Assembly: GCF_013127955.1 (NCBI RefSeq)
Contig: NZ_CP053435.1
Span: 4,154,001-4,218,000, forward strand
DNA length: 64,000 nt
Direction of reading: 5' to 3'
Origin: Spirosoma taeanense
Lineage (GTDB): Bacteria; Bacteroidota; Bacteroidia; Cytophagales; Spirosomataceae
The notes under the pieces are model-generated. The model was not told the DNA's origin. It made no database searches and worked only from the letters and a program-made list of their open reading frames with translations. The number at the start of each line of letters is the position of its first letter. The stretch's first letter is position 1. Position numbers and translations under genes: made by a program. Positions 1,933-12,698 of the stretch are shown here, piece after piece.

Positions 1933-2177
1933 GCGGGATGCCCCTGCGGGCTGGAAACGGTTTGTTGCTCAACAACAAATGAAGGTAAAAAGAATCCCAA
2001 CCAACCAGAATTACTAGCACCCGGAACGAACGGGCAGTCACAACCGGGCCATTCAGGCCCGGAGAGTAGGCCACATCCCCCCGTGCCTTTTCGGCGTTGA
2101 GAGCCCCCGCTAAGGGCCTGTTTTGGCAGCAGGACGTTGCTGCTGTTCCTTGCCCACTCTTTTACGCCCTGCCCTGC

Positions 2178-3437
2178 ATGTCTCTTAATCATTATCGTTG
2201 TTTCCTTTCGGCAATTGTCTGCGCGTTCATCGGCCTGCTGGCTGGCTGCGCAAATCACGAATCGGGTCAGACCGCAGCGTCTGCCACCGGACGGAAGACT
2301 TTCGGCGATGCGCTCTCGTTCCTTTCAAAACATAAGGAGGTAATTGTTCTGACCGCGCCCGACAATGATTCGGCGCAGGTAGTCGTGGTTGGCGCGTATC
2401 AGGGCCGGGTCATGACCAGCACGGCCAACGGGGCAGGCGGCACCAGCTACGGCTGGGTTAACGACAAACTCATTGCCGCCAGTCGTTACGAGCCGCACAT
2501 GAACGCCTTTGGTGGCGAAGACCGGATCTGGCTTTCGCCCGAGGGCGGGCAGTTTTCGATCTATTTTAAACCGGGCGCACCGTTCGATTTTGACCACTGG
2601 CAAACACCGGCCATCATTGATACGGTCAGCTATAAACTGGTCAGCAAGAATAAGTCCGAGGCTCGGTTCAGTCAGACCGCTACGCTCTACAACCATTCCG
2701 GCACCCGCTTCGACATTGGCATTGACCGGCAGGTGCGGGTTTTATCGCAGACGCAGATCAGTCGGTTGCTGGGCGTCAATTCGCTCGAAGGGCTGAAGGT
2801 AGTTGGCTACGAAACCGAAAACACGGTCCGCAATCGGGGTGACGACTGGCAGCGGGACAAAGGCGTGCTGGGCATCTGGATTCTGGGTATGTTTATTCCA
2901 GCACCCCAGACTACCATCATTGCCCCGTTTACAAAACAACGGACGGCTGCGCTGCAATTGACCGACAACTATTTCGGCAAAATACCGTCCGAAAGGCTGC
3001 GCGTGCAGGATTCCGTTGTACTGCTCCGAGCGGATGGGAAATTCCGCAGTAAAATCGGGATTGCACCCGCATCGGCCCGACCGGTGGCGGGCAGTTACGA
3101 TCCTGATAAAGGCATTCTGACGCTGGTACAGTTTGATCTTGACCCGGCGGGCGACTACCTGAAATCGTCCTGGGAAATGCACAAACAACCCTACCGGGGC
3201 GATGCGCTCAACGCTTACAACGACGGCCCGTTAGCCGATGGCAGTCAGATGGGCCCATTCTATGAACTGGAGTCTAACTCGGCGGTACGTCCTTTGAAAC
3301 GGGGTGAAGCCCTCGTTCACCATCACCGTACGTTTCATATCGAGGGCGACAGGAATGCCCTGCATCGTCTGACCAGAACTGTACTGGGCGTTGACCTAAA
3401 CCAGTTGCCGACCTGGCCGGACGCTAACCGGCCATAA
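2178..3437 (+). CDS. Predicted lipoprotein, DUF6786-like
   Basis: A 419-residue protein starting at ATG 2178; upstream in-frame codons lack a signal peptide and are rejected. The N-terminus carries a lipoprotein signal ending in LLAGC (Cys near residue 24), so the mature protein should be membrane-anchored. The rest is a single beta-rich domain with the stretches FGDALSFLSKH, VVVGAYQGRVMTSTA and HMNAFGGEDRIWLSPEGG, and it resembles the DUF6786 family of Bacteroidota, for which I know no function. Some of these folds recall galactose-mutarotase-like domains, but no catalytic residues can be assigned. It is divergent from bshA across 245 bp and no partner gene is evident. Confidence 0.75.
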   Translation: MSLNHYRCFLSAIVCAFIGLLAGCANHESGQTAASATGRKTFGDALSFLSKHKEVIVLTAPDNDSAQVVVVGAYQGRVMTSTANGAGGTSYGWVNDKLIAASRYEPHMNAFGGEDRIWLSPEGGQFSIYFKPGAPFDFDHWQTPAIIDTVSYKLVSKNKSEARFSQTATLYNHSGTRFDIGIDRQVRVLSQTQISRLLGVNSLEGLKVVGYETENTVRNRGDDWQRDKGVLGIWILGMFIPAPQTTIIAPFTKQRTAALQLTDNYFGKIPSERLRVQDSVVLLRADGKFRSKIGIAPASARPVAGSYDPDKGILTLVQFDLDPAGDYLKSSWEMHKQPYRGDALNAYNDGPLADGSQMGPFYELESNSAVRPLKRGEALVHHHRTFHIEGDRNALHRLTRTVLGVDLNQLPTWPDANRP

Positions 3438-3546: not shown

Positions 3547-4422
3547 ATGGTCGCGCGGCAGACTATACCCTTTTCAGCATTTGTTATCGGCTTTCTGCGG
3601 CTTATCCGTGTGCAGAACCTGCTGATCGTTGTGCTGACGCAGTTTCTCGCCCGCATCTTCCTGGTTGGTCCCAAAGCCGAATGGCCGCTGATTCTGGTCG
3701 ACCCAACGATCTGGCTGCTGTCGCTCTCAACCGTCTGCATTGCGGCAGCGGGCTACATCATCAACGATTACTTCGACATCAAGATCGACCTCATCAATAA
3801 ACCCCAGCGGGTGGTGATCGGGCGTTACCTGAAGCGCCGGGTAGCAATGGGTACCCACCAGTTGCTGAACGTAATTGGCTGCCTGATTGGCCTGTACCTG
3901 AGCAAATGGGTGTTTGTAGCCGATGTCGTATCGGTTTCGTTACTGTGGTTCTACTCGGCGCAGTTCAAACGGCAACCCGTTATCGGCAACGTCGTTATCT
4001 CCCTGCTAACGGCCCTGTCGCTCATTGTGCTGGCTGTTTATTACCGCCAGAATGCCGATATGCTGCTGATCTACGCCCTGTTTTCGTTTGGCATTTCGCT
4101 GGTTCGCGAAATTATTAAAGACATGCAGGACGTTCGGGGCGACGCCCGCTTCGGCTGCCGGACGCTGCCCATTGTCTGGGGCCTGCGCCGAACAAAATAC
4201 CTGCTTTACGTGCTCATCGCGTTGTTTATCATGAGTATGTTCCTGATCGCCGATGCGCTCGGTAACCCCCGGCTCGGCTGGATTTTCCTGATCCTGCTGA
4301 TTCCAATTACCTGGCTGACCTACCGGCTTGTTTACGCCGATACCCGGCGCGACTTCGGCTACCTCAGTACACTCTGCAAACTCATTATGCTCATGGGGGT
4401 TCTGAGTATGATCTGGGCCTGA
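3547..4422 (+). CDS. UbiA-family prenyltransferase
   Basis: Integral membrane enzyme that transfers a polyprenyl group from its diphosphate to an acceptor. Two Asp-rich motifs that bind Mg-diphosphate are visible: NDYFDIKIDLINKP (about residues 78-91) and KDMQDVRGD (about 193-201). Hydrophobic segments along 291 residues fit the nine-helix UbiA fold. Bacteroidota homologues are often annotated as geranylgeranylglycerol-phosphate geranylgeranyltransferases, but the acceptor cannot be read from sequence; a quinone-pathway enzyme is an alternative. I chose ATG 3547 because the longer frame begins at a TTG. A Bacteroidota -7 box, TATTTTTG (3527-3534), lies just upstream and implies a very short leader. 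Confidence 0.85.
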   Translation: MVARQTIPFSAFVIGFLRLIRVQNLLIVVLTQFLARIFLVGPKAEWPLILVDPTIWLLSLSTVCIAAAGYIINDYFDIKIDLINKPQRVVIGRYLKRRVAMGTHQLLNVIGCLIGLYLSKWVFVADVVSVSLLWFYSAQFKRQPVIGNVVISLLTALSLIVLAVYYRQNADMLLIYALFSFGISLVREIIKDMQDVRGDARFGCRTLPIVWGLRRTKYLLYVLIALFIMSMFLIADALGNPRLGWIFLILLIPITWLTYRLVYADTRRDFGYLSTLCKLIMLMGVLSMIWA

Positions 4423-4496
4423 TTACGGTATAATTCCTGCTGGCTCTTCGGAGTTTTCTGACCTTTGTCTAAGTCGAAAGCGACAAAAAATTAAAA

Positions 4497-4515
4497 TTCG
4501 CAACTTTGTTGCAAA
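4497..4515. promoter_or_regulatory. Palindrome upstream of merC-like gene (candidate metal-regulator operator)
   Basis: A 19-bp interrupted palindrome centred on GCAACTTTGTTGC: five perfect pairs around a TTT centre, then one mismatch and two more pairs. Its core contains CAACTTTG, one base off the Bacteroidota -7 box, so a bound repressor would block promoter use. Fur/Zur-family regulators bind sites of this size and symmetry. The link to a named regulator is inference. Confidence 0.45.
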
Positions 4516-4571
4516 AATGTCGGTTAAGAGAAGGTACGATTGTCGAACAGGTCGTATTTTTGTGCTTACCC

Positions 4572-4952
4572 ATGAAGACAGATTTCCTCTCCCGTAAAGC
4601 TGATTACATCGGTATCACCGGCTCGGTGTTGTGCATTCTTCATTGCCTCATTACACCTGTGTTGCTGATGACAACCGCCTTGTTTCAGGACGAAAAATGG
4701 CGTCTGGGCTATCTGAGCCTGGATTATATCTTCATTGGTATCAACATCGTAGCCGTTTATTTTGCTACGCGTCATCAGGCTTCGCCCGTCATTAAAAAGG
4801 CGCTCTGGGGCTTTCTGAGCCTGTTCACTATTGCGCTTTTGCTGGAAGATTCGGCTCCCCTGTTTGAATACATGGCCTATGCAGCCTCGGCGGGTCTGGT
4901 GCTAACCCACCTCGTCAATATTCGCCAGCACCGGTTAAGCCACGCGCATTAG
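4572..4952 (+). CDS. MerC-domain membrane protein
   Basis: A 126-residue membrane protein with about four hydrophobic segments. The first helix carries GSVLCILHCLITP (about residues 14-26), the Cys-x3-Cys-type pair after a Gly/Ser that marks MerC domains, originally mercury importers. In Bacteroidota such proteins are common away from mer operons and are thought to handle other metals, often zinc; the metal is not shown by the sequence. ATG 4572 is preferred because it puts a short charged N-terminus before helix 1; the longer frame begins at TTG 4506 inside the palindrome. It converges on the MbnH-like gene with only 5 bp between stop codons. Confidence 0.85.
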   Translation: MKTDFLSRKADYIGITGSVLCILHCLITPVLLMTTALFQDEKWRLGYLSLDYIFIGINIVAVYFATRHQASPVIKKALWGFLSLFTIALLLEDSAPLFEYMAYAASAGLVLTHLVNIRQHRLSHAH

Positions 4953-4957
4953 TCCAG

Positions 4958-6049
4958 CTACGGAGCCAGCCGGGGATCCCGGACGTAGTCGAAGTCGGTC
5001 AGGGTGCGCAGGAACGCAATAATCTGTTTCTTTTCGGTATCGGTCAGCGGAATGCCCGGCTTGCCGTTCGTCTGCAGAGCCGGATCGAGTTCGGGTACAT
5101 TCTGCACCCCTCCGTTGGCGTAATGGCTCAACACCTGCTCAAGGGTTCCGTAGCGGCCGTCGTGCATATACGGACTGGTGCGGTCAATATTCCGCAGACT
5201 TGGCACTTTAAACAAGTACTTATCTTCTGTCCGGAGCGTCACCAGCGAGCGGCCTTCGTCCTGATTACTAGCGCGGCTCAGGCCGTTATTCCGGAACTGC
5301 TGATTGGTAAATAGTTCGCCGGAGTGGCAGGTAGCGCATTTCTGCTGAAACAGGTTCATTCCCGCCAGCTCATCGGCCGTCAGGTCGCCCCCCGATTCTT
5401 TCCGGACGTATTTGTCGTAGCGGCTGTTGGCCGACACCATCGTCAGCATAAACTGCGACAGGACTTTCAGCAGTCGTTCTGTTGTAATGGAATCGGTGCC
5501 GTAAGCGGCTTTGAAGAGGGCGGGATAGGTCGGGCTTTTCGCCAGATTTTCTTTCAGCGCGCTCAGCGTATGCCCCATCTCAACCGGGTTCGTAATGGGT
5601 GCAATCGGCACAAGGTCCAGATCCGATACGCCCCCATCCCAGAAAAACTGACGGTAGAACGCCAGATTCTGCAGGCCGATATTGTTCCGCGTCCCGATTT
5701 TATCGTTAATGCCGTGACTGAGCGCGTGATCGGTATGGGCAAAAGCCGACCCCTGAATGTGGCAGAACGCGCAACTGATGGTGCTGTTGACCGACAGCAT
5801 ATCGTCATAAAACAACCGTTTCCCCAACGCGACGCCTTCGACCGTCATCGGGTTTTTCGTAAAATCATAAACCGGGTCCGGGAAGTTGGCGGGCTTTTTC
5901 CAGACGTAAGGGGTGGTTTTGTACGGTACTGGCTGCGGCTCGTCGGGCTTCGTTGGGTCGCCACCGCCCGACTGGCCAGTATGGCAGGACGCCACCGCGC
6001 CGAACAGAGCTGCGCTCAATACCAATCCGATCAGGCCCCAGTGACGCAT
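4958..6049 (-). CDS. Di-heme cytochrome c peroxidase / MauG family, MbnH-like
   Basis: Periplasmic di-heme enzyme of the bacterial cytochrome c peroxidase/MauG family. 363 residues with a lipoprotein signal ending GAVASC (Cys22), so it is probably lipid-anchored. Two heme-binding CxxCH motifs are visible, CAFCH at 93-97 and CATCH at 238-242, and the C-terminal family motif PYMHDGRYGTLEQVL follows. It is 3 bp downstream of the MbnP-like gene on the same strand, which is the known MbnP/MbnH arrangement; in the characterised pair MbnH oxidises a tryptophan of MbnP to kynurenine. I therefore infer an MbnH role rather than peroxide detoxification. A plain CcpA-type peroxidase remains possible, since the axial ligand cannot be settled by eye. 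Confidence 0.85.
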   Translation of the reverse strand: MRHWGLIGLVLSAALFGAVASCHTGQSGGGDPTKPDEPQPVPYKTTPYVWKKPANFPDPVYDFTKNPMTVEGVALGKRLFYDDMLSVNSTISCAFCHIQGSAFAHTDHALSHGINDKIGTRNNIGLQNLAFYRQFFWDGGVSDLDLVPIAPITNPVEMGHTLSALKENLAKSPTYPALFKAAYGTDSITTERLLKVLSQFMLTMVSANSRYDKYVRKESGGDLTADELAGMNLFQQKCATCHSGELFTNQQFRNNGLSRASNQDEGRSLVTLRTEDKYLFKVPSLRNIDRTSPYMHDGRYGTLEQVLSHYANGGVQNVPELDPALQTNGKPGIPLTDTEKKQIIAFLRTLTDFDYVRDPRLAP

Positions 6050-6052
6050 AGG

Positions 6053-6892
6053 TTAGTTAACCGCGGTTGTCACGGCGTTTTTGTAGCGAATCATATGGGC
6101 GTAGTTGTCGGCCACGTCCTTCGATGCAGGCGAAACCATGATCTCCGGACTTTTAGCAATGCTCAGCGGAACCGGCCCATCGAATACGTTCAGCACATCG
6201 GTTTGAAGCGTTACGTCAGGCATTCGACTGGCCGATACCTCTACAACATCACCACCAAACGGCAGCGTTACGGTCTTCAGGTTGTTGATCGTGCGCGTAT
6301 CGCGTCCGCCGAAGAAACCAATATGGTACCGAAACGTGCGCTGGCCGGCGGCATCCGCCGGGGCTGCGGGCGACGTCCCTTCCAGCTTCATAAAGATATA
6401 TCCCGAATTCCATGACCAGTACATGCCGTTCGCGCCGATATGATCGCCCGCCGGATCGAGGACGCCCGTCCGACGGCTTATGTCCATCGTACTGCGCAGG
6501 CTATCTACGCCAATCACGAACGTTACGGCCTTGTAGCTGCCAATGGGTACGTTACGGAGCCGGATCTTCTGCGACGCGGGCTGACTCTCCTGGATCAGGA
6601 AATAGCTGCTGTCCTGCGGAACCACGTATTCGCTGCCGTCGGTACGCGTCAGCCTGATATTGCTGATAAAATAGTTGAACATCGTTGGCGTAAACGACTC
6701 ACCGGATGCGTTGCGGTAGGTTCCGCTGTTGAGCCGGAGGTCTTCGCTGCCCGCTACATTGTCGAACGTCAGGCCGAAGCTGCCGGTCAGGATGGGGTCA
6801 AATGAGGTATCCGGATCGGGCGTATCGCAGGCCACGATGGCCCAGCCCAGAATCAGCGCCGATAAACAGGCGAACGGAAACGTTAACTTCAT
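6053..6892 (-). CDS. MbnP-like copper-binding lipoprotein
   Basis: A 279-residue secreted lipoprotein: signal peptide ending AIVAC with Cys22. It carries the hallmarks of the MbnP family: FNYFISNIRL at about 72-81, and GMYWSWNSGYIFMKLEG at about 156-172, where W159 and W161 sit in the MxWxW segment. In studied MbnP proteins a tryptophan here is converted to kynurenine by MbnH and helps bind copper. Other potential ligands, such as H151, precede the motif. The adjacent di-heme MbnH-like gene completes the pair. No methanobactin precursor or biosynthesis genes are visible, so a copper storage, delivery or sensing role on the outer surface or in the periplasm is inferred. Confidence 0.85.
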   Translation of the reverse strand: MKLTFPFACLSALILGWAIVACDTPDPDTSFDPILTGSFGLTFDNVAGSEDLRLNSGTYRNASGESFTPTMFNYFISNIRLTRTDGSEYVVPQDSSYFLIQESQPASQKIRLRNVPIGSYKAVTFVIGVDSLRSTMDISRRTGVLDPAGDHIGANGMYWSWNSGYIFMKLEGTSPAAPADAAGQRTFRYHIGFFGGRDTRTINNLKTVTLPFGGDVVEVSASRMPDVTLQTDVLNVFDGPVPLSIAKSPEIMVSPASKDVADNYAHMIRYKNAVTTAVN

Positions 6893-6919
6893 AACCAGTT
6901 TTTCTTTTCAGGAATCATT

Positions 6920-7123
6920 CTAGCCTATCCGATTTCGGGCGTACAGCGCAATCAGGATTACGATCGTGCCGCTCACCCCCATCAGGAACAGCCAGACCAG
7001 CGCGTTGGTTGCGCTGAACGGCTGCTGCATAAACTCATTAACGAGGCCCACTACCGTACCGATGAAAATGCCAGTCATGCTGACAAAAATAAATTGAACA
7101 ATGGGCGGCAGTCGACGAAGCAT
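6920..7123 (-). CDS. Small membrane protein, unknown
   Basis: A 67-residue protein with two hydrophobic segments, about residues 7-28 and 41-62, and a positively charged C-terminus (YARNRIG). The spacing to its neighbours (27 bp to the MbnP-like start, 75 bp from the Asp-box protein stop) and the shared strand suggest it is co-transcribed with the metal gene run. I recognise no family. It could be a helper of the membrane complex or merely a passenger; the evidence for its being a gene is its clean hydrophobic pattern and its position. Confidence 0.55.
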   Translation of the reverse strand: MLRRLPPIVQFIFVSMTGIFIGTVVGLVNEFMQQPFSATNALVWLFLMGVSGTIVILIALYARNRIG

Positions 7124-7198
7124 AGCAGGTATACGGATAACGAACCCGCAGCGATTCTATTTTCAGCCTTAGCCATTCCAGACCATAAGTTAATCTGC

Positions 7199-8431
7199 TT
7201 ACTGAATTTCGCTCAGTTGTACCGTAATGACCGCCTTCTGCTCACCGGTTACCTGCTCATAGGCGATCAGCAATCCGTGTCTGGTGAACAGCACTGCCGG
7301 GTAGGTGGCATTGACGGTTTCGGGCGTCAGGTATTTTATGGGGCCGGATTTCAGCCCAACGAATGACTGCATCCCAATGCGGTGTTTAAACGTTCCCATC
7401 TGGTTGGAACCGTCGGTTGAGATCGCTTCGTCCCATACCCAGACCAGTTTCTCACCAGCGGCTGCGACCTGCGGATGCCGGGCACGGGCCGACAGATGAT
7501 CAGCGACCAACTGCTTTGTTCCCAGACGGGCCAGCCGCAGACCAACGGCTTCTTCCTTACCCGAAAACCACGTAACCAGCACGTCGCTGCCCACCTGCGC
7601 TACCGACGGCCCCGCGTGCGGACAGGCGTTAACCTGCCAGTTATCGGCGTAAACTGCCTTCGGCTGGGTGAACGTCCGGCCCCCATCCGACGAGACCACG
7701 TGGCTAATGTCGCGGGCCGCAATTTCACCGGGTTTTGCCGGGAGCATATCCCGATACGTCAGGTGAATACGCTGCTGAGCATCCACAAACACGTTCGTCC
7801 GGCAGCACTGGCAGGCGTTCTCGTCCACAATCAGCTCGTCCGTAAAGCCGCCCCCCGGCTTCGTCTGCATGAATTTTACGGGACGCCCTTCTTTACCCGG
7901 CATTTTTTCATCGAGCCAGACAATACCGATTTCACCGTTCGGCAGCCGGGTAATGTCGGCAAACGAATGACTCGTGCCGGGGGCAGTGTTCTGATGAACG
8001 GGCCGGGGCTCGGTCCAGGTTCGGCCACCATTGGTAGAAAGAACGTAAAGCAGATCTCCGGCAAAACGTGAGTCGGGCGTTGGGCGCGGCACCTCGAACA
8101 CCGCCAGCAGCGTACCGTCTTTCTTAGTCGCGATCTTGGGCATCCCTTCGGCATGAACCGAAAAACTGACAGGCGTTTTTACGCGGATTTTCGGGCCAAA
8201 AGCGGGACCTGTGCCAGAACCACTGTTACTGTTCATCACTGCGAAGCAGAAACTGGCGTGTTTATCGTCCTGTTTCTCGACCCAGCTCAGCAGCGGATTT
8301 CCGGCAGCATCGGTCGTTAGGCGGGGCGTTGCGCCCACAAAATTCGCGTCCGATACGGTCGTTTGCCGAACGGAACTGGGCTCCAGCAGACCTGTCAGAC
8401 CGGCGAGCAGGAAGGTGATGAGGCTTTTCAT
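7199..8431 (-). CDS. Sialidase-fold (Asp-box) secreted protein with CxCC motif
   Basis: A 410-residue protein with a signal peptide (KSLITFLLAGLTGLL). Two Asp-box repeats, STNGGRTW and SSDGGRTF, indicate a six-bladed beta-propeller of the BNR/sialidase type. The motif ENACQCCRTNVF (about residues 205-216) and the later NACPHAG supply thiols that fit metal or disulfide chemistry, whereas the arginine triad of true sialidases is not evident. I chose ATG 8431 because it begins directly at the signal peptide and leaves a 4-bp gap to the TonB receptor stop; the longer frame overlaps that gene. Such CxCC propellers are often called exo-alpha-sialidase automatically; here the context argues for a metal-related role (inference). 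Confidence 0.75.
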   Translation of the reverse strand: MKSLITFLLAGLTGLLEPSSVRQTTVSDANFVGATPRLTTDAAGNPLLSWVEKQDDKHASFCFAVMNSNSGSGTGPAFGPKIRVKTPVSFSVHAEGMPKIATKKDGTLLAVFEVPRPTPDSRFAGDLLYVLSTNGGRTWTEPRPVHQNTAPGTSHSFADITRLPNGEIGIVWLDEKMPGKEGRPVKFMQTKPGGGFTDELIVDENACQCCRTNVFVDAQQRIHLTYRDMLPAKPGEIAARDISHVVSSDGGRTFTQPKAVYADNWQVNACPHAGPSVAQVGSDVLVTWFSGKEEAVGLRLARLGTKQLVADHLSARARHPQVAAAGEKLVWVWDEAISTDGSNQMGTFKHRIGMQSFVGLKSGPIKYLTPETVNATYPAVLFTRHGLLIAYEQVTGEQKAVITVQLSEIQ

Positions 8432-8435
8432 AGAT

Positions 8436-10808
8436 TTACTTTCCGGAGAAGTTATATTGGATACCACTCACGACTAATCTTGGGGCGGCTGGCGTAAACG
8501 TCGTGCGATCGAGAGGATTATTGCCCCGGGTTGCCTGATAGGCATACAGCTCGTTCGTCAGATTCAGGACGTTGCTGAACAGCTCAATCCCGTTTTTGAA
8601 CGAGTAACCCGCCCGTAGATTCAACACGCTGATCCCGCGCGCGCCAAAGGCGCCCCGATCGGCATACTCCACGGTATTGATCTGGTTTTGAAAATATGGA
8701 CTCAGCCGCTGCCACTCCAGCGACAGGCGCAGACCCCTGGCAAACTGCTGAGGCTTATAGGTCACTTCAGTATTGGCAATCCAGCGTGGCGCTTGCGGCA
8801 TATCGTAGCCGTTTACGTTTTTCAGCACATCTGACTCTTTCGTACTCAGCGAAAAATCAATGAAGCGGTGCGTGGCGTTGGTGCCGCCAAACCTGAGAAA
8901 CCACGCGGCCGAGGGCTTGTAGGTCAGGCTGTATTCAACGCCCCGGTGCAGGGTCTGCCCCGCCGAGCGATAGTCCGTGGAATTGTCGGGCTGGCGGATA
9001 CTGAGTAGTTCATTCCGGCCATTCATTTGATAAACGGCCCAGTCGAGATACACCTTCCGGTTCAGCAGCGACGCCCAGCCACCCAGCTCGAAATTGTCGA
9101 ACTGCGCTGGCTGCAGCGCATAATAGAAGGGTGACTCACCCGGTAGAGCCGCCGGATTTTTACGGAAGATGGCCGTCAGGCCGGGGGGTGAAAAGCCCTG
9201 GCTGAAGTTGGCATACACGCCCCGATCGTGGCCCAGATCATACGTCAGACCCACTTTAGGCGTCAGGCGGCTGTAGGCTTTGCTGCCGCTGCTGTTGTCC
9301 AGAAAATTCTGGTAGTCAAACGCCATCCGGTCGTAGCGCAGACCCAGCGACGCCCGCAGTCGGGGCAGCGGCTCGAAATCGAGCTGCGTATACGTGCCGA
9401 GGTTGTGAATAGACGCATTGTACTGAGCAAGCAATAAATCGGGCCGTTCCTGCACGATTGTATATTTCTCAACGGACTTACGGTCGGGCCGGAGTTGAGC
9501 CGCCAGGTCAATCTGATAGGCGCTATAGGTGTTGGGCGAGTTGTCGTACGTAAAGCCCGTCAGCCAGCGCGCATTCAGGGGCCCGAACCGCTGGCTATGC
9601 TGCGCCACCACGCCCACGCTATGAAAGCTGTTGTCGTTGATCTCGCCCGTGGCCGTTTCAGCGCCTGACTTCCAGCGAATGCCGTAGTTGGGATTCTGGC
9701 CGATGGTGTTATTCCGGTAAAAGGCCGTTACGAACGTCTGCGCTTGGCCATTCCAGTCGTGTTCAAGCGTCAGCCGCGCCCGCGTCGATTCGACTTTTCG
9801 GTACGTAAAATTGGTGGTGCTGCTGTACACCCGGCTGTAATAGGCCACACTGTCTACGCTGCCGCCCGTCTGCGAGTCGTAGGTGTTCTGCGAAACCGTT
9901 CCGATCAGTCGGGTGCGGGCGGTGAACAGGTATTCGGCACGCGCATTGAGCGACAGTTTATCGTAATCACTGAACGCCTGCCAGCCGTTACGCTGCTTAG
10001 CCACGAACCCACCGATATACACGCCAAATTTGGACGTAATGAACCCACCTCCGCCAAACTGCACCCGTTTATAACCATAATTGTCAGCCTGCACACCGAT
10101 ACGCGCTGTGGGCACGGCCGTTGGGCGCTGGGTGATAAAATTGATTGCACCGCCCACGGCCTCGGGGCCGTAGAGGCTGGAAGCCGGTCCTTTCACGACT
10201 TCCACCGAGCTAACAGCAAAGATGTTTAGTTCAATCAGCGCATTATGGTTAAAGACGCCCATCGGTCGAATCGGCAGACCATCTTCCAGGTATAAAAAAT
10301 AGGCGTTGGTGCCGAACGGCTGGCGAATACCCATGCCATGCTGCTCGTTATTGTAATTGGCCATGTACACCCCCGGCGTCTTGTTGATAATCTCGTAGAC
10401 ATTCGTCGGTTTGGTGTCGTTGATGAGCGTTGGCGACAGGCGCGAAATGGCTACGGGAGCTTCGGTACGGAGTTGGGCCTCGCGGCTCGCCGTCACAACG
10501 ATGGTTTGCAGATTCTGCTCAGCGGGCGTCAGGGCAATGCGGAGTGGTTCAGCCGTTACGTCCACCCGTTTATCGGAGTAGCCAACACTGGTGACGATAA
10601 GCTGACGGGCACTGGTCGTTATCGAAAAAGCGCCTTTGTCATCGGTGATCGCACCGGTATTTGTCTCCGGTACACGCAGGGTGGCACCAATAATGGGTTC
10701 TTTGGTCTGGGCGTCGAATATCTGCCCTGTGAGGCTGCTCTGTGCTGATGCACACAGGACAGCCATAAGCCATAGCCCGCAGGCTATGAAAAATGTATAG
10801 AATCTCAT
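8436..10808 (-). CDS. TonB-dependent outer-membrane receptor
   Basis: A 790-residue receptor that imports a ligand across the outer membrane with energy from TonB. Order of parts: signal peptide ending CASAQ (about 1-22); a carboxypeptidase-like regulatory domain with SLTGQIFDAQTKEPIIGATL and VTSVGYSDKRV (to about 100); a plug domain with PTNVYEIINKTPGVYM and VEVVKGPASSLYGPEAVGG (to about 225); and a 22-stranded barrel ending in a C-terminal aromatic-type strand (GIQYNFSGK). It belongs to the FecA/CirA-like metal-chelate receptors rather than SusC, and no SusD partner is adjacent. It sits between the small Cys protein and the propeller gene in the MbnP/MbnH run, so copper or a copper chelate is the likely ligand. 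Confidence 0.9.
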   Translation of the reverse strand: MRFYTFFIACGLWLMAVLCASAQSSLTGQIFDAQTKEPIIGATLRVPETNTGAITDDKGAFSITTSARQLIVTSVGYSDKRVDVTAEPLRIALTPAEQNLQTIVVTASREAQLRTEAPVAISRLSPTLINDTKPTNVYEIINKTPGVYMANYNNEQHGMGIRQPFGTNAYFLYLEDGLPIRPMGVFNHNALIELNIFAVSSVEVVKGPASSLYGPEAVGGAINFITQRPTAVPTARIGVQADNYGYKRVQFGGGGFITSKFGVYIGGFVAKQRNGWQAFSDYDKLSLNARAEYLFTARTRLIGTVSQNTYDSQTGGSVDSVAYYSRVYSSTTNFTYRKVESTRARLTLEHDWNGQAQTFVTAFYRNNTIGQNPNYGIRWKSGAETATGEINDNSFHSVGVVAQHSQRFGPLNARWLTGFTYDNSPNTYSAYQIDLAAQLRPDRKSVEKYTIVQERPDLLLAQYNASIHNLGTYTQLDFEPLPRLRASLGLRYDRMAFDYQNFLDNSSGSKAYSRLTPKVGLTYDLGHDRGVYANFSQGFSPPGLTAIFRKNPAALPGESPFYYALQPAQFDNFELGGWASLLNRKVYLDWAVYQMNGRNELLSIRQPDNSTDYRSAGQTLHRGVEYSLTYKPSAAWFLRFGGTNATHRFIDFSLSTKESDVLKNVNGYDMPQAPRWIANTEVTYKPQQFARGLRLSLEWQRLSPYFQNQINTVEYADRGAFGARGISVLNLRAGYSFKNGIELFSNVLNLTNELYAYQATRGNNPLDRTTFTPAAPRLVVSGIQYNFSGK

Positions 10809-10811
10809 GAA

Positions 10812-10956
10812 GTTTTAGTCGAATGAATGAACGAAATGCAGCGCCCATGCCCGACCTGAGCAGGTCAGGACGAAAGCGCTGATGGCTGCCGCACTGGCAG
10901 TCTGTGCAAACACAGAAAACCAGACCAGCCAGAATCCAGATGTATTCGACTAAAAC
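10812..10956 (-). promoter_or_regulatory. Leader with 13-bp inverted repeat before the TonB receptor
   Basis: A perfect 13-bp inverted repeat (GTTTTAGTCGAAT, arms at 10812-10824 and 10944-10956) brackets the 141-nt space between the small Cys protein and the TonB receptor. On the transcript the 5' arm contains the upstream stop codon (UAG) and the 3' arm ends 3 nt before the receptor AUG. The enclosed part holds further pairings such as GACCTG-AG-CAGGTC (10853-10866). A role in coupling translation of the two genes is inferred. Confidence 0.5.
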
Positions 10957-11327
10957 CGGGGAGGATGAAACAGGCACGCCAGCGGAGCCAGGTAAGCAGA
11001 CGCGGAGTAGCGCGGAAACGTAACGTTCCGCAGGGCAGTCCAGACGGGATTGAATGTAAACGGCAGGTCTGCCTGGCAAAACAACTGAAGTACCGGCAGG
11101 TTCTGTACCCGTTCGGTGGTTTCTTTGTCCTGCCTGTCCTGTTGCGCTTTCAACTGTTTAGCGAGGTAGCATTGCCCGTCGCAGTGCAGTTCGGGCTTGT
11201 CGCGGTTTTCGCACAGGACACGGGCTATGTAATCCCGGTTGACCTGGTAATAGGCAATAGTTCCCCACGGGCTGACAATCGGCAGCAGCGTTGCAAACAG
11301 CAGTAGGACAACAATTGCGTTACGCAT
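10950..11327 (-). CDS. Small secreted Cys-containing protein, unknown
   Basis: A 125-residue protein starting at ATG 11327; the frame can be extended two codons to a TTG but has no better start. It opens with a hydrophobic signal or anchor (about residues 4-20), then has a soluble part with LCENRDKPELHCDGQCYL (Cys39, Cys49, Cys53), a charged Lys/Gln-rich helix, and a C-terminus with two more cysteines and LFHPPRF. Proteins of this type precede TonB receptors in metal loci of Bacteroidota, but I cannot assign a family. It is the first gene of the metal run, with a -7 box 18 nt upstream. The Cys/His content suggests metal binding or sensing in the periplasm (inference). Confidence 0.65.
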   Translation of the reverse strand: MRNAIVVLLLFATLLPIVSPWGTIAYYQVNRDYIARVLCENRDKPELHCDGQCYLAKQLKAQQDRQDKETTERVQNLPVLQLFCQADLPFTFNPVWTALRNVTFPRYSASAYLAPLACLFHPPRF

Positions 11328-11344
11328 AAACAAACTTTACCCGG

Positions 11345-11352
11345 CAAAGGTA
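11345..11352 (-). promoter_or_regulatory. Bacteroidota -7 box for the metal gene run
   Basis: TACCTTTG on the minus strand, an exact match to TAnnTTTG, 17 nt before the ATG at 11327. No convincing -33 TTG at the right spacing is visible. It lies in the 68-bp gap shared with the divergent CDF gene. Confidence 0.45.
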
Positions 11353-11395
11353 TAGCCTAAACAAATTGGTTAGCCCCGTAATTTTGTCAAAAACG

Positions 11396-12346
11396 ATGTC
11401 GCATCACCACGATCATACGCATAGCCACGGCCATCATCATCACGGGCCTGCTGTTCTGACTAATGTCAACCGGGCACTCATTATCGGTGCGGTACTCAAC
11501 ACGATCTATGTGGTGGTTGAGTTTGGTCTAGGCTTTTATTATAATTCGCTGGCTCTGATTGCCGATGCGGGCCATAACCTCAGCGACGTAGCAAGCCTGC
11601 TGCTTTCGCTGCTGGCTTTCCGGCTCGCCCGGGTTCGTAATACAACCAATTACACCTATGGTTACCGTAAAAGCACGGTTCTGGCCTCGCTGACTAACGC
11701 CGTCATTCTGCTGGTTACCATTGGCGCTATTCTATGGGAAAGTATTCAGCGGTTCCGCCACCCGGAGCCGGTTCCGGGCGGACCCGTAGCGTGGGTGGCC
11801 GGACTGGGGCTGGTTGTTAATACGGTGTCGGCCCTGCTCTTTTTCCGCGACAAAGACCACGATCTGAACATTCGGGGGGCGTACCTGCACCTGATGGCCG
11901 ATGCGCTGGTTTCGCTGGGGGTCGTCGTGGCGGGTATCGTGATTACGTACACTAACTGGACCTGGCTCGACCCAGCCATTGGGCTGGTTGTTGCCGGGGT
12001 GATTCTAGGCTCAACCTGGCGACTGCTGTCCGACAGTGTCCGGCTGTCGCTCGACGGCGTTCCGGCGGGCATTGATCTGGAAGCCGTACTCACCGACCTG
12101 CGGACCGTAAAAGGCGTTCGGGATGTGCATCACGTTCACGTCTGGGCGATGAGCACGACCGAAAATGCCCTGACGGCCCACCTCGTGCTGGCCCCCGACC
12201 TCAGCGACGCACAGATCAGCGATCTAAAACACGACGCCCGGCACCGGCTCGAACACCACACCATCCGCCACGCGACCCTCGAAACAGAGGTCGTTGCCGA
12301 AACGGATTGTCCGGCGAAAGAATGTATCAATTTTTTCGGAACCTGA
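11396..12346 (+). CDS. Cation diffusion facilitator (Zn/Co/Cd efflux)
   Basis: Inner-membrane H+-coupled exporter of divalent metals, 316 residues, ZitB/CzcD type. Seen: a His-rich N-terminus (MSHHHDHTHSHGHHHHGP), six hydrophobic segments, the transport-site motif LIADAGHNLSD (HxxxD) in helix II with a second HLMADALVSLG (HxxxD) in helix V, and a cytoplasmic C-terminal domain with VHHVHVWAMS and a terminal CPAKEC pair. ATG 11396 is preferred because it starts directly at the His-rich stretch; the upstream frame begins at a GTG. It diverges from the MbnP/MbnH-TonB run across 68 bp, so a shared metal regulator is plausible. The family mostly moves zinc, cobalt or cadmium, not copper. Confidence 0.92.
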   Translation: MSHHHDHTHSHGHHHHGPAVLTNVNRALIIGAVLNTIYVVVEFGLGFYYNSLALIADAGHNLSDVASLLLSLLAFRLARVRNTTNYTYGYRKSTVLASLTNAVILLVTIGAILWESIQRFRHPEPVPGGPVAWVAGLGLVVNTVSALLFFRDKDHDLNIRGAYLHLMADALVSLGVVVAGIVITYTNWTWLDPAIGLVVAGVILGSTWRLLSDSVRLSLDGVPAGIDLEAVLTDLRTVKGVRDVHHVHVWAMSTTENALTAHLVLAPDLSDAQISDLKHDARHRLEHHTIRHATLETEVVAETDCPAKECINFFGT

Positions 12347-12377
12347 CTATATGCCGTAACCGGGTTTCATTTATACA

Positions 12378-12698
12378 TTACAGCCGATCGAAGGCATAAT
12401 CCCGCTCGACTTTGCAGATGCGGGTTTTGTAAGCTTCATACCAGTGCTGGCGTCCTCGTTGCTGGGCAATCTGGTGTTCGGCCTGCTGCTTCCAGGCCCG
12501 AATCGCGTCGAGACTTTCCCAGTAAGACACGGTTATACCCAGCTCATCGCGCGCCGACTCGACTCCCAGAAAACCCGGCTGGTCGCGGGCCAGTTCGATC
12601 ATGCGTGCGGCCGTATCGCCGTAACCGTCGGCTAAGTCGGTTCGCACAGATGTAAAAATAACCGCGTAATAAGGCGGCTCGGGCGTTTTAGCAATCAT
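12378..12698 (-). CDS. Antibiotic biosynthesis monooxygenase (ABM) domain protein
   Basis: A 106-residue single-domain protein of the dimeric alpha-beta barrel ABM family, which includes small cofactor-free oxygenases and heme-degrading enzymes. Seen: YYAVIFTSVR as strand 1, ARDQPGFLGVESARDELGI as the typical PGFLG turn, and VSYWESLDAIRAWKQQAEHQ, the family signature SYWESLDAIxxWKxxxEH. The C-terminal RQHWYEAYKTRICKVERDY also fits. The substrate is unknown, and no heme ligand can be assigned by eye. It is convergent with the CDF gene. Confidence 0.85.
   Translation of the reverse strand: MIAKTPEPPYYAVIFTSVRTDLADGYGDTAARMIELARDQPGFLGVESARDELGITVSYWESLDAIRAWKQQAEHQIAQQRGRQHWYEAYKTRICKVERDYAFDRL

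Follow-up and report, generated by a model that had tools for sequence, protein, structure and literature searches.

Gene content and layout of the locus

The 64,000-nucleotide stretch analysed here, referred to as the window, comes from the genome of Spirosoma taeanense (contig NZ_CP053435.1, positions 4,154,001 to 4,218,000). Between positions 4958 and 11327 it carries six open reading frames (ORFs), all on the minus strand, which are transcribed in the order g1 (a small exported cysteine protein), TonB-dependent receptor, Asp-box protein, g4 (a small membrane protein), MbnP-family lipoprotein and di-heme enzyme (Table 1). It is well supported that this is a copper-uptake locus outside a methanobactin cluster, and the six-gene set probably pulls in copper. 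We consider it likely that the locus is a copper-starvation uptake operon under nascent-peptide control, headed by a leader of a Bacteroidota type in which FxPP takes the place of RAPP. By analogy with the copper-sensing leaders CruR and CutF of Proteobacteria, g1 looks like a copper gauge that would stall the ribosome to switch the other five genes, and less like a working part of the system.

A preliminary description of the window had named the same six genes on one strand, and all of them were recovered, including the receptor, the Asp-box protein with its CQCC motif (Pfam BNR_2), the small exported protein of 125 aa and the small membrane protein of 67 aa. It had suggested that the whole set may form an outer-surface system for copper capture or relay. 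A copper-uptake locus is borne out by MbnP and MbnH, by Met and His residues of the receptor and by a PepSY_TM gene in a related locus (L105), whereas a relay made of all six proteins is not supported in the case of g1. The C-terminal FHPP of g1, the base-paired leader between g1 and the receptor gene, and the flanking MerC-family and CDF genes are additional to that description.

Spacing within the set is uneven. The g1 stop is separated from the TonB ATG by 141 nt, while the Asp-box gene, for which the ATG at 8431 is a likelier start than the listed GTG at 8467, begins 4 bp past the TonB stop, and the di-heme gene begins 3 bp past the MbnP stop, as described earlier.

Table 1. Positions of the six genes, of motifs and leader arms, and of the two flanking genes in the window
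Feature	Position	Strand	Support or remark
g1, 125-aa exported Cys protein, operon head, proposed copper-sensing arrest leader peptide	10950..11327	-	
C39, third invariant Cys of g1, 10 residues before CxGxC	11211-11213	-	
CDGQC (CxGxC), putative metal-sensing motif of g1	11169..11183	-	CxGxC in 114/115
FHPP, putative arrest motif of g1, followed by 2 codons and the stop	10959..10970	-	
Leader stem, 5' arm, holds the g1 stop codon	10944..10957	-	RNA fold
Leader stem, 3' arm, separated by two bases from the TonB ATG (10808)	10811..10824	-	14 bp with 10944-10957
TonB-dependent receptor	8436..10808	-	Pfam barrel and plug
Exported Asp-box beta-propeller, CxCC and CPH invariant	7199..8431	-	
g4, 67-aa small membrane protein	6920..7123	-	
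MbnP-family lipoprotein	6053..6892	-	PF20243, E 1.9e-52
MbnH/MauG-type di-heme enzyme	4958..6049	-	PF03150, E 6e-50
CDF cation-efflux gene, divergent, 5' edge of the set	11396..12346	+	PF01545, E 8.7e-44
MerC-family membrane protein gene, convergent, 3' edge of the set	4572..4952	+	PF03203, E 4.9e-18

The small exported protein at the head of the set

For comparison, loci were collected around mbnP (L032-L111 and L132-L151), around the Asp-box protein (L112-L129), around g1-mbnP pairs (L130-L131) and by similarity to g1 (L002-L031); L numbers are used as labels for fetched loci and G numbers for sampled genomes. Some genomes give several loci, and the counts below take no account of relatedness. 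The collection holds 115 distinct g1 ORFs, that of the window included, each at least 90 aa long and differing in the last 60 residues.

Across 51 of these that were aligned, only C39, C49, G51, C53, P122 and P123 are invariant, and mean column identity is 29%. Nearly every member (114/115) has PP within its last 15 aa, compared with 22/493 other small ORFs of the same loci. The fuller motif F[HRQK]PP occurs in 83/115 members and in 1/493 of the other small ORFs, and [HRQK]PP in 105/115 members. Between one and four residues follow PP in 104/113. In 113 members CxGxC is separated from PP by 61-71 residues (mode 68), a stretch in which little is conserved; a distance that stays fixed across free sequence would be needed by a ribosome-arrest sensor but not by a folded carrier.

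No Pfam or NCBIfam family matched g1 at E 0.01, and none of the 51 aligned members matched DUF2946 (PF11162), the family of the Bordetella leader CruR, at E up to 1 within the filters of HMMER. Membership of DUF2946 is thus ruled out by sequence, and the likeness is kept at the level of how the two might work. g1 does agree with the published rule-based definition of CutF-like proteins, being shorter than 150 aa, with PP in its last 15 residues, a same-strand gene within 1,000 nt, and an export signal in the form of a hydrophobic N-terminus (judged by eye).

Distribution and synteny

g1 heads the same-strand run of 79 of 118 mbnP genes and lies immediately upstream of mbnP in 49 cases. Since in L144 a g1-type ORF is masked by an antisense ORF, 79 is probably a lower bound. 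Over the 115 g1 loci the next gene is MbnP in 55, MbnH in 11, TonB in 11, an unlabelled gene in 24 and another g1 in 2, while an opposite ORF follows in 8 and the edge is reached in 4; this tally is rough for the short loci L003-L031, and in L004, for example, it misses the gene directly after g1. The gap after g1 is long: its median is 125 bp over 103 gaps, whereas 982 control pairs have a median of 30 bp.

In the phylum 138 of 345 sampled genomes contain relatives of g1, and in the order 89 of 148 do. The relatives are present in 67/88 genomes with mbnP and in 71/257 genomes without it, an odds ratio of 8.4 when kinship is ignored.

The six-gene order, for which the preliminary description had suggested a search across Bacteroidota, proved to be modular. 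The genes do co-occur, but among the regions fetched the full order was seen in three genomes of a single genus (the window, L138 and L139), that is, in 3 of the 8 genomes of the genus that have MbnP. Its two halves, g1-TonB-AspBox and g1-MbnP-MbnH, recur far more widely. The halves are also joined in two other genera, as g1-TonB-AspBox-MbnP without g4 in L145 and as the same arrangement plus MbnH in L151. L105 has the order g1-TonB-PepSY_TM-MbnP-MbnH, with a 51-aa ORF after TonB. At the threshold used, g4 was recognised only within the genus, upstream of mbnP in L135-L139 and in its own locus.

G324 and G380, two genomes from a single other family, have no g1 match; directly upstream of mbnP (gaps of 133 and about 142 nt, respectively) they carry another small exported ORF, which ends in RGPP, and a di-heme gene follows mbnP. 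The RGPP ORF of G380 matches DUF2946 at 25.3 bits, just over the cut-off of 23.7. At this position, it seems, one type of leader has taken over from another. DUF2946 matches occur in 9/345 genomes of the phylum at E 0.001, five of them above the cut-off (L152-L160), and several end in RAPP or RGPP.

Other variations were seen around g1. Small Cys-rich ORFs with a PP ending that the g1 profile does not match lie just upstream of mbnP in L086 (FHPPEVLPV), L090 (WTPPKIG) and L081 (LIPPN). In genome G139 (L131, L146) the module is expanded: there are eight g1-type and six mbnP matches, most of which form adjacent g1-mbnP pairs. In the g1-headed loci L132, L134 and L143, proteins of DJ-1/PfpI type, called by Pfam in L132 and L143 and by eye in L134, stand beside TonB and MbnP, and the one in L132 has an additional YHS domain.

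Leader RNA between g1 and the receptor gene

The window leader (10790-10970) folds at -69.7 kcal/mol (z -5.87), and none of 200 shuffled sequences was as stable. The fold pairs the g1 stop codon with the region just before the TonB start. An almost identical stem is found in L138, and in L139 there is a different stem of 10 bp (p 0.02), provided that TonB starts there at the TTG aligned with the start of its sisters, as was assumed; with that start, a stem is present in all three full-set loci. Stop-to-start pairing is also seen, with unrelated sequence, in the minimum-energy folds of L112, L119, L121, L144, L145 and L070.

Among leaders of 50-260 nt, at least 8 pairs connect the g1 stop region with the next start region in 43 of 87, including 12 of the 17 leaders with TonB next, compared with 114 of 400 controls drawn from 608 pairs (p 2e-4). 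A first pairing test pointed the same way (17/70 g1 against 27/200 controls below z -2, p 0.01), although it is less well defined than the count over 87 leaders. Overall folding energy of the gaps differs weakly (mean z -2.3 in 61 g1 gaps, -1.8 in 90 controls, p 0.04). The pairing effect is real, then, but it is not universal, and so another read-out, for example Rho termination, may apply elsewhere.

Two other signals were looked for and dropped. The C-over-G bubble of Rho-type sites is too slight, with a mean C-G skew of 0.11 in g1 gaps and 0.05 in controls, and a riboswitch was discarded since Rfam gave no riboswitch match up to E 1 in 4000-12500.

The cysteines of g1, its fixed but unconserved spacer, the terminal PP, the position at the head of operons and the long leader together point to a regulatory leader peptide. 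We think it unlikely that g1 is instead a working secreted copper-binding protein, either chaperone or capture protein, in which the terminal Pro-Pro is structural. The export signal, the three invariant cysteines and the copper-type operons would all fit such a protein. However, the sequence from the cysteines to PP is free and yet fixed in length, and PP almost always lies close to the stop, so a ribosome-reading role fits g1 better than a folded protein does; moreover, the gap to the next gene is long and often base-paired, and in G324 and G380 another small RGPP-ending ORF takes the place of g1.

TonB receptor and Asp-box protein

M149, H157, M159, H188, H404, H621, H647 and M670 of the receptor are invariant in the subfamily to which it belongs. 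When 28 receptors of more than 650 aa from 23 chosen loci were compared, all eight residues were present in each of the 17 AspBox-linked receptors, as well as in those of L105 and L070, and nine other receptors kept none or one of them.

The Asp-box protein has a BNR_2 match and a propeller fold, the features on which it was compared with GH33 sialidases. By its gene neighbourhood it is a presumed partner of the TonB receptor rather than of MbnP/MbnH. A role as second substrate of MbnH is unlikely, because in L112-L114, L116-L121 and L123 it stands beside TonB with no adjoining MbnH. A copper-dependent methanethiol oxidase of the SBP56 type, a family with MauG neighbours (PMC5739008), found no support in Pfam and was dropped. 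Paralogous Asp-box proteins with CxCC and CPH are encoded away from g1 and mbnP in L124-L129; in L126 and L128 the preceding gene encodes an 809-aa protein that has the look of a TonB-type receptor by its N-terminus.

MbnP and the di-heme enzyme

The identity of MbnP is secure. It scores 178.3 bits on PF20243 (cut-off 27) and carries W159 and W161 within the segment GMYWSW, as noted in the preliminary description. In 118 aligned sequences W159 and Y165 are kept in all, W161 in 117 and H190 in 112, and a lipobox-like C22 in 98; a smaller alignment took in 41 of the 104 MbnP ORFs of 230-300 aa. Structure prediction, proposed earlier as a check, gave an AlphaFold model (pLDDT 90.6) whose only matches at E < 0.001 are the six chains of 7L6G (TM-score 0.51-0.57). 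MbnP occurs in 88/345 sampled genomes of the phylum and 78/101 of the family; the closest named relatives of the window protein are from Spirosoma (L164-L167), and nearly all of its 25 matches are titled Bacteroidota or members of that phylum.

The adjacent enzyme looks, from its sequence, to be of MbnH/MauG type. It has a CCP_MauG domain and two CxxCH motifs, which are kept in at least 134 of 135 sequences. Its Tyr310, kept in 129/135, aligns with the Tyr of MbnH 6E1C and with a Met of the peroxidase 3O5C, at what work on MauG identifies as the axial-ligand position. Over the whole protein bacterial cytochrome c peroxidases score above 6E1C, which is ninth, while for the C-terminal 117 residues 6E1C is the best match. 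Both proteins fall under the NCBIfam equivalog cut-offs (MbnP on TIGR04052, 37 bits against 140; the enzyme on TIGR04039, 222 bits against 362.85), and they are therefore described as MbnP/MbnH-type and not as certified equivalogs.

In the studied MbnP/MbnH pair, the di-heme enzyme is said to oxidise a Trp of its partner to kynurenine, creating a copper site. By analogy, the window MbnP may undergo the same modification. In agreement with the preliminary description, no methanobactin genes appeared: PF05114 (MbnB_TglH_ChrH) has 0 matches in the genome at E 0.001, the other methanobactin genes not having been searched singly. MbnP/MbnH pairs standing outside methanobactin clusters were already described in 2013 (PMC3621798), so this part of the locus is not new.

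Ten loci (L096, L097, L100, L101, L104, L106-L108, L140 and L141) have the order g1-MbnH-MbnP-MbnH, with a second di-heme gene between g1 and mbnP. In many operons MbnH is followed by a gene of about 300-325 aa whose product has a mature N-terminus like CDxCGC and, by eye, an outer-membrane barrel. In the example tested (L102:7487-8383) it matched no Pfam family.

Flanking genes

The CDF gene at the 5' edge also lies upstream of the full set in L138 and of g4-MbnP in L136, and whether it belongs to the system is uncertain. The MerC-family gene adjoins MbnH in L036 and L136-L139 and is a few genes away in L133 and L135. A candidate -7 promoter element, TACCTTTG at 11345..11352 (minus strand), lies about 18 nt upstream of the g1 ATG; by eye it resembles the Bacteroidota consensus for this element, and no -33 element was seen by eye at the usual spacing from it. 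Further away (2097-3437) the window encodes a DUF6786 protein of unknown function, a strong match at 502 bits.

That these neighbours recur in the genus is in line with a leader that senses another metal (zinc, mercury, cobalt or nickel) or thiol/redox state, and a receptor that imports that metal or a metallophore; CutF-like proteins are, in addition, said not to be all copper-specific (PMC9973294). We hold this to be quite unlikely, however, given the copper-type partners (MbnP as the next gene in 55/115 g1 loci, PepSY_TM in L105), a receptor Met/His set softer than would be expected for zinc, and the lack of any known riboswitch by Rfam.

Proposed mechanism of copper-responsive control

In the mechanism that we favour, a ribosome translating g1 under copper scarcity would halt at FHPP, with two codons left before the stop. 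It would then cover the g1 stop codon and hold the 14-bp stem open, leaving the TonB start region free; this geometry is assumed because the toeprint of CruR has the first Pro in the P site. With copper available, the metal would bind CxGxC of the emerging chain, the stall would be released, the leader would refold and the operon would be shut. In the expressed operon, the receptor may take up copper through a route lined by Met and His, with the Asp-box protein as a putative accessory, and MbnH may oxidise a Trp in the MxWxW segment of MbnP, producing a copper site with which MbnP could hold copper or pass it on. The sequences themselves show the genes with their motifs and synteny, the fixed distance between the motifs, the place of g1 at the head of operons, the stem and the residues of the receptor; the arrest, copper as its ligand and the sign of the switch are all proposed by analogy with CruR and CutF, and the Trp chemistry by analogy with the studied MbnP/MbnH pair.

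A wider proposition can be made with about even confidence. Bacteroidota may have their own class of copper-sensing arrest leader, with three Cys, CxGxC, F[HRQK]PP and a spacer of 61-71 residues, which would run most MbnP/MbnH operons of the phylum and, separately, a Met/His-type TonB copper receptor. The length of the spacer may be sufficient to span both the ribosome and the translocon.

Several observations weigh against the favoured mechanism. As many as 39 of the 118 mbnP genes have no recognised g1 head, and about half of the g1 leaders have a weak stem or none (44/87 below 8 pairs). When the 17 TonB leaders were set against shuffled start regions, pairing reached p < 0.05 in only 6, plus L139 with its TTG start. 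The receptors of the g1-headed operons L143, L048, L132 and L134 do not have the Met/His set, which rules it out as a universal signature of g1-linked receptors. A comparison of g1 by hhalign with a DUF2946 set of only 5 sequences gave a probability of 0.5%, and in the DUF2946-type ORF of G380 just one of the two CXXC cysteines remains. The accessible text of PMC10987492 does not list FxPP among the arrest motifs that it describes, and most RAPP-like sequences tested there arrested inefficiently. Zinc or another metal would suit the CDF and MerC genes at the flanks equally well, and the case as a whole comes from sequence analysis.

The sign of the switch might also be reversed, as in CutF, so that copper promotes the stall, turns the operon on and serves detoxification or surface sequestration instead of uptake. 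Although the window leader does resemble CutF in its stem over the next start, its CxxxC and its terminal PP (PMC9973294), we regard this as improbable: it is hard to see why an excess of copper should induce a TonB importer, and the Bordetella counterpart is repressed by copper (PMC9426467). A chance juxtaposition of the g1-TonB-AspBox and MbnP-MbnH modules without shared function, which would explain their wide separation in two further genomes of the genus, G029 and G059, and the presence of the full order in just 3/8 of its MbnP genomes, is very unlikely, since the modules are also joined in two other genera (L145, L151) and MbnP-MbnH elsewhere often has its own g1 head, so that both halves share one type of switch.

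Taken as an uptake operon under a copper-sensing leader, the locus has several consequences. One small gene family, present in 138/345 genomes of the phylum, would be a likely switch for copper genes; orphan MbnP/MbnH pairs gain a regulatory context, and the receptor subfamily offers a definite candidate for a copper route. For research on arrest peptides, g1 would supply a new kind of terminal motif as well as a naturally occurring spacer length.

Comparison with known systems

Copper acquisition and sensing in Bacteroidota are hardly treated in the open-access papers searched. The following comparisons refer to the accessible text of the papers cited.

The closest parallel is the cruR-crtA-crpH operon of Bordetella pertussis (CruR, CrtA/BfrG and CrpH; PMC9426467, PMC12914433, PMC13038864), a copper importer operon that is expressed under copper limitation (PMC12914433, PMC13038864). 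CruR (bp2923, DUF2946) has CXXC and RAPP with 45 residues between them, a gap of 162 bp, and a TonB copper importer as the next gene (PMC9426467). Its arrest was later demonstrated in vitro, with a toeprint in which the P site holds the first of the two Pro codons (PMC12992588). The window has the same arrangement of a small exported Cys protein with terminal xPP in first place, a long gap (141 bp) and a TonB receptor. PepSY_TM in L105 parallels the position of crpH, and MbnPH-like genes are reported in some cruR operons (PMC9426467, PMC12914433, PMC13038864). Where CruR has CXXC, RAPP and a spacer of 45 residues, g1 has CxGxC with a third Cys, F[HRQK]PP and a spacer of 61-71 residues; the window leader pairs the stop codon with the next start, whereas CruR works through Rho. 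The receptors differ as well: of the Cys, Met and His residues of CrtA, just two His are reported as conserved, in contrast to the Met/His set of the window receptor.

With CutF of Rhodobacter capsulatus (CXXXC, terminal PPP; PMC8456105, PMC9973294) g1 shares a signal peptide, CXXXC, the terminal PP, the position in cis and a stem over the start of the next gene. The spacing in CutF is shorter (about 40 residues, counted from published positions), and in the presence of copper CutF switches a multicopper oxidase on, opposite in sign to what is proposed for g1. A 2023 list of CutF-like proteins (PMC9973294) includes Bacteroidota, with 19% of the entries, and TonB neighbours; the accessible text of that paper studies none of the Bacteroidota proteins. 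Some relatives of g1 may therefore already be in the list; a description of the Bacteroidota leader was not found in the open-access literature, where supplements lay outside the search, and the 2023 list may thus contain it.

The MbnP/MbnH pair resembles known ones (TIGR04052/TIGR04039; 7L6G, 6E1C) in its MxWxW segment, a di-heme partner with a putative axial Tyr, adjacent genes and a TonB gene nearby. Unlike those, it scores under the equivalog cut-offs, and the genome has no gene of MbnB type.

Like the RAPP-type arrest peptides of the RQH family (PMC10987492, PMC12992588), g1 is encoded by a small exported upstream open reading frame (uORF) with a basic or polar residue before the terminal PP; unlike them, it has F-[HRQK]-P-P without Ala or Gly. 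Other arrest peptides of Bacteroidota, ending in NSP-stop and NAP-stop, are known upstream of sec genes. A 2025 survey of RAPP/RGPP found a TonB-related class throughout Gram-negatives but, in its accessible text, reports uORFs of copper genes as missing in Bacteroidota. As RAPP and RGPP were the motifs sought, an F[HRQK]PP family would have escaped it. If g1 is the leader that we propose, it would fill this gap, and its longer spacer would let it read periplasmic and not cytoplasmic copper.

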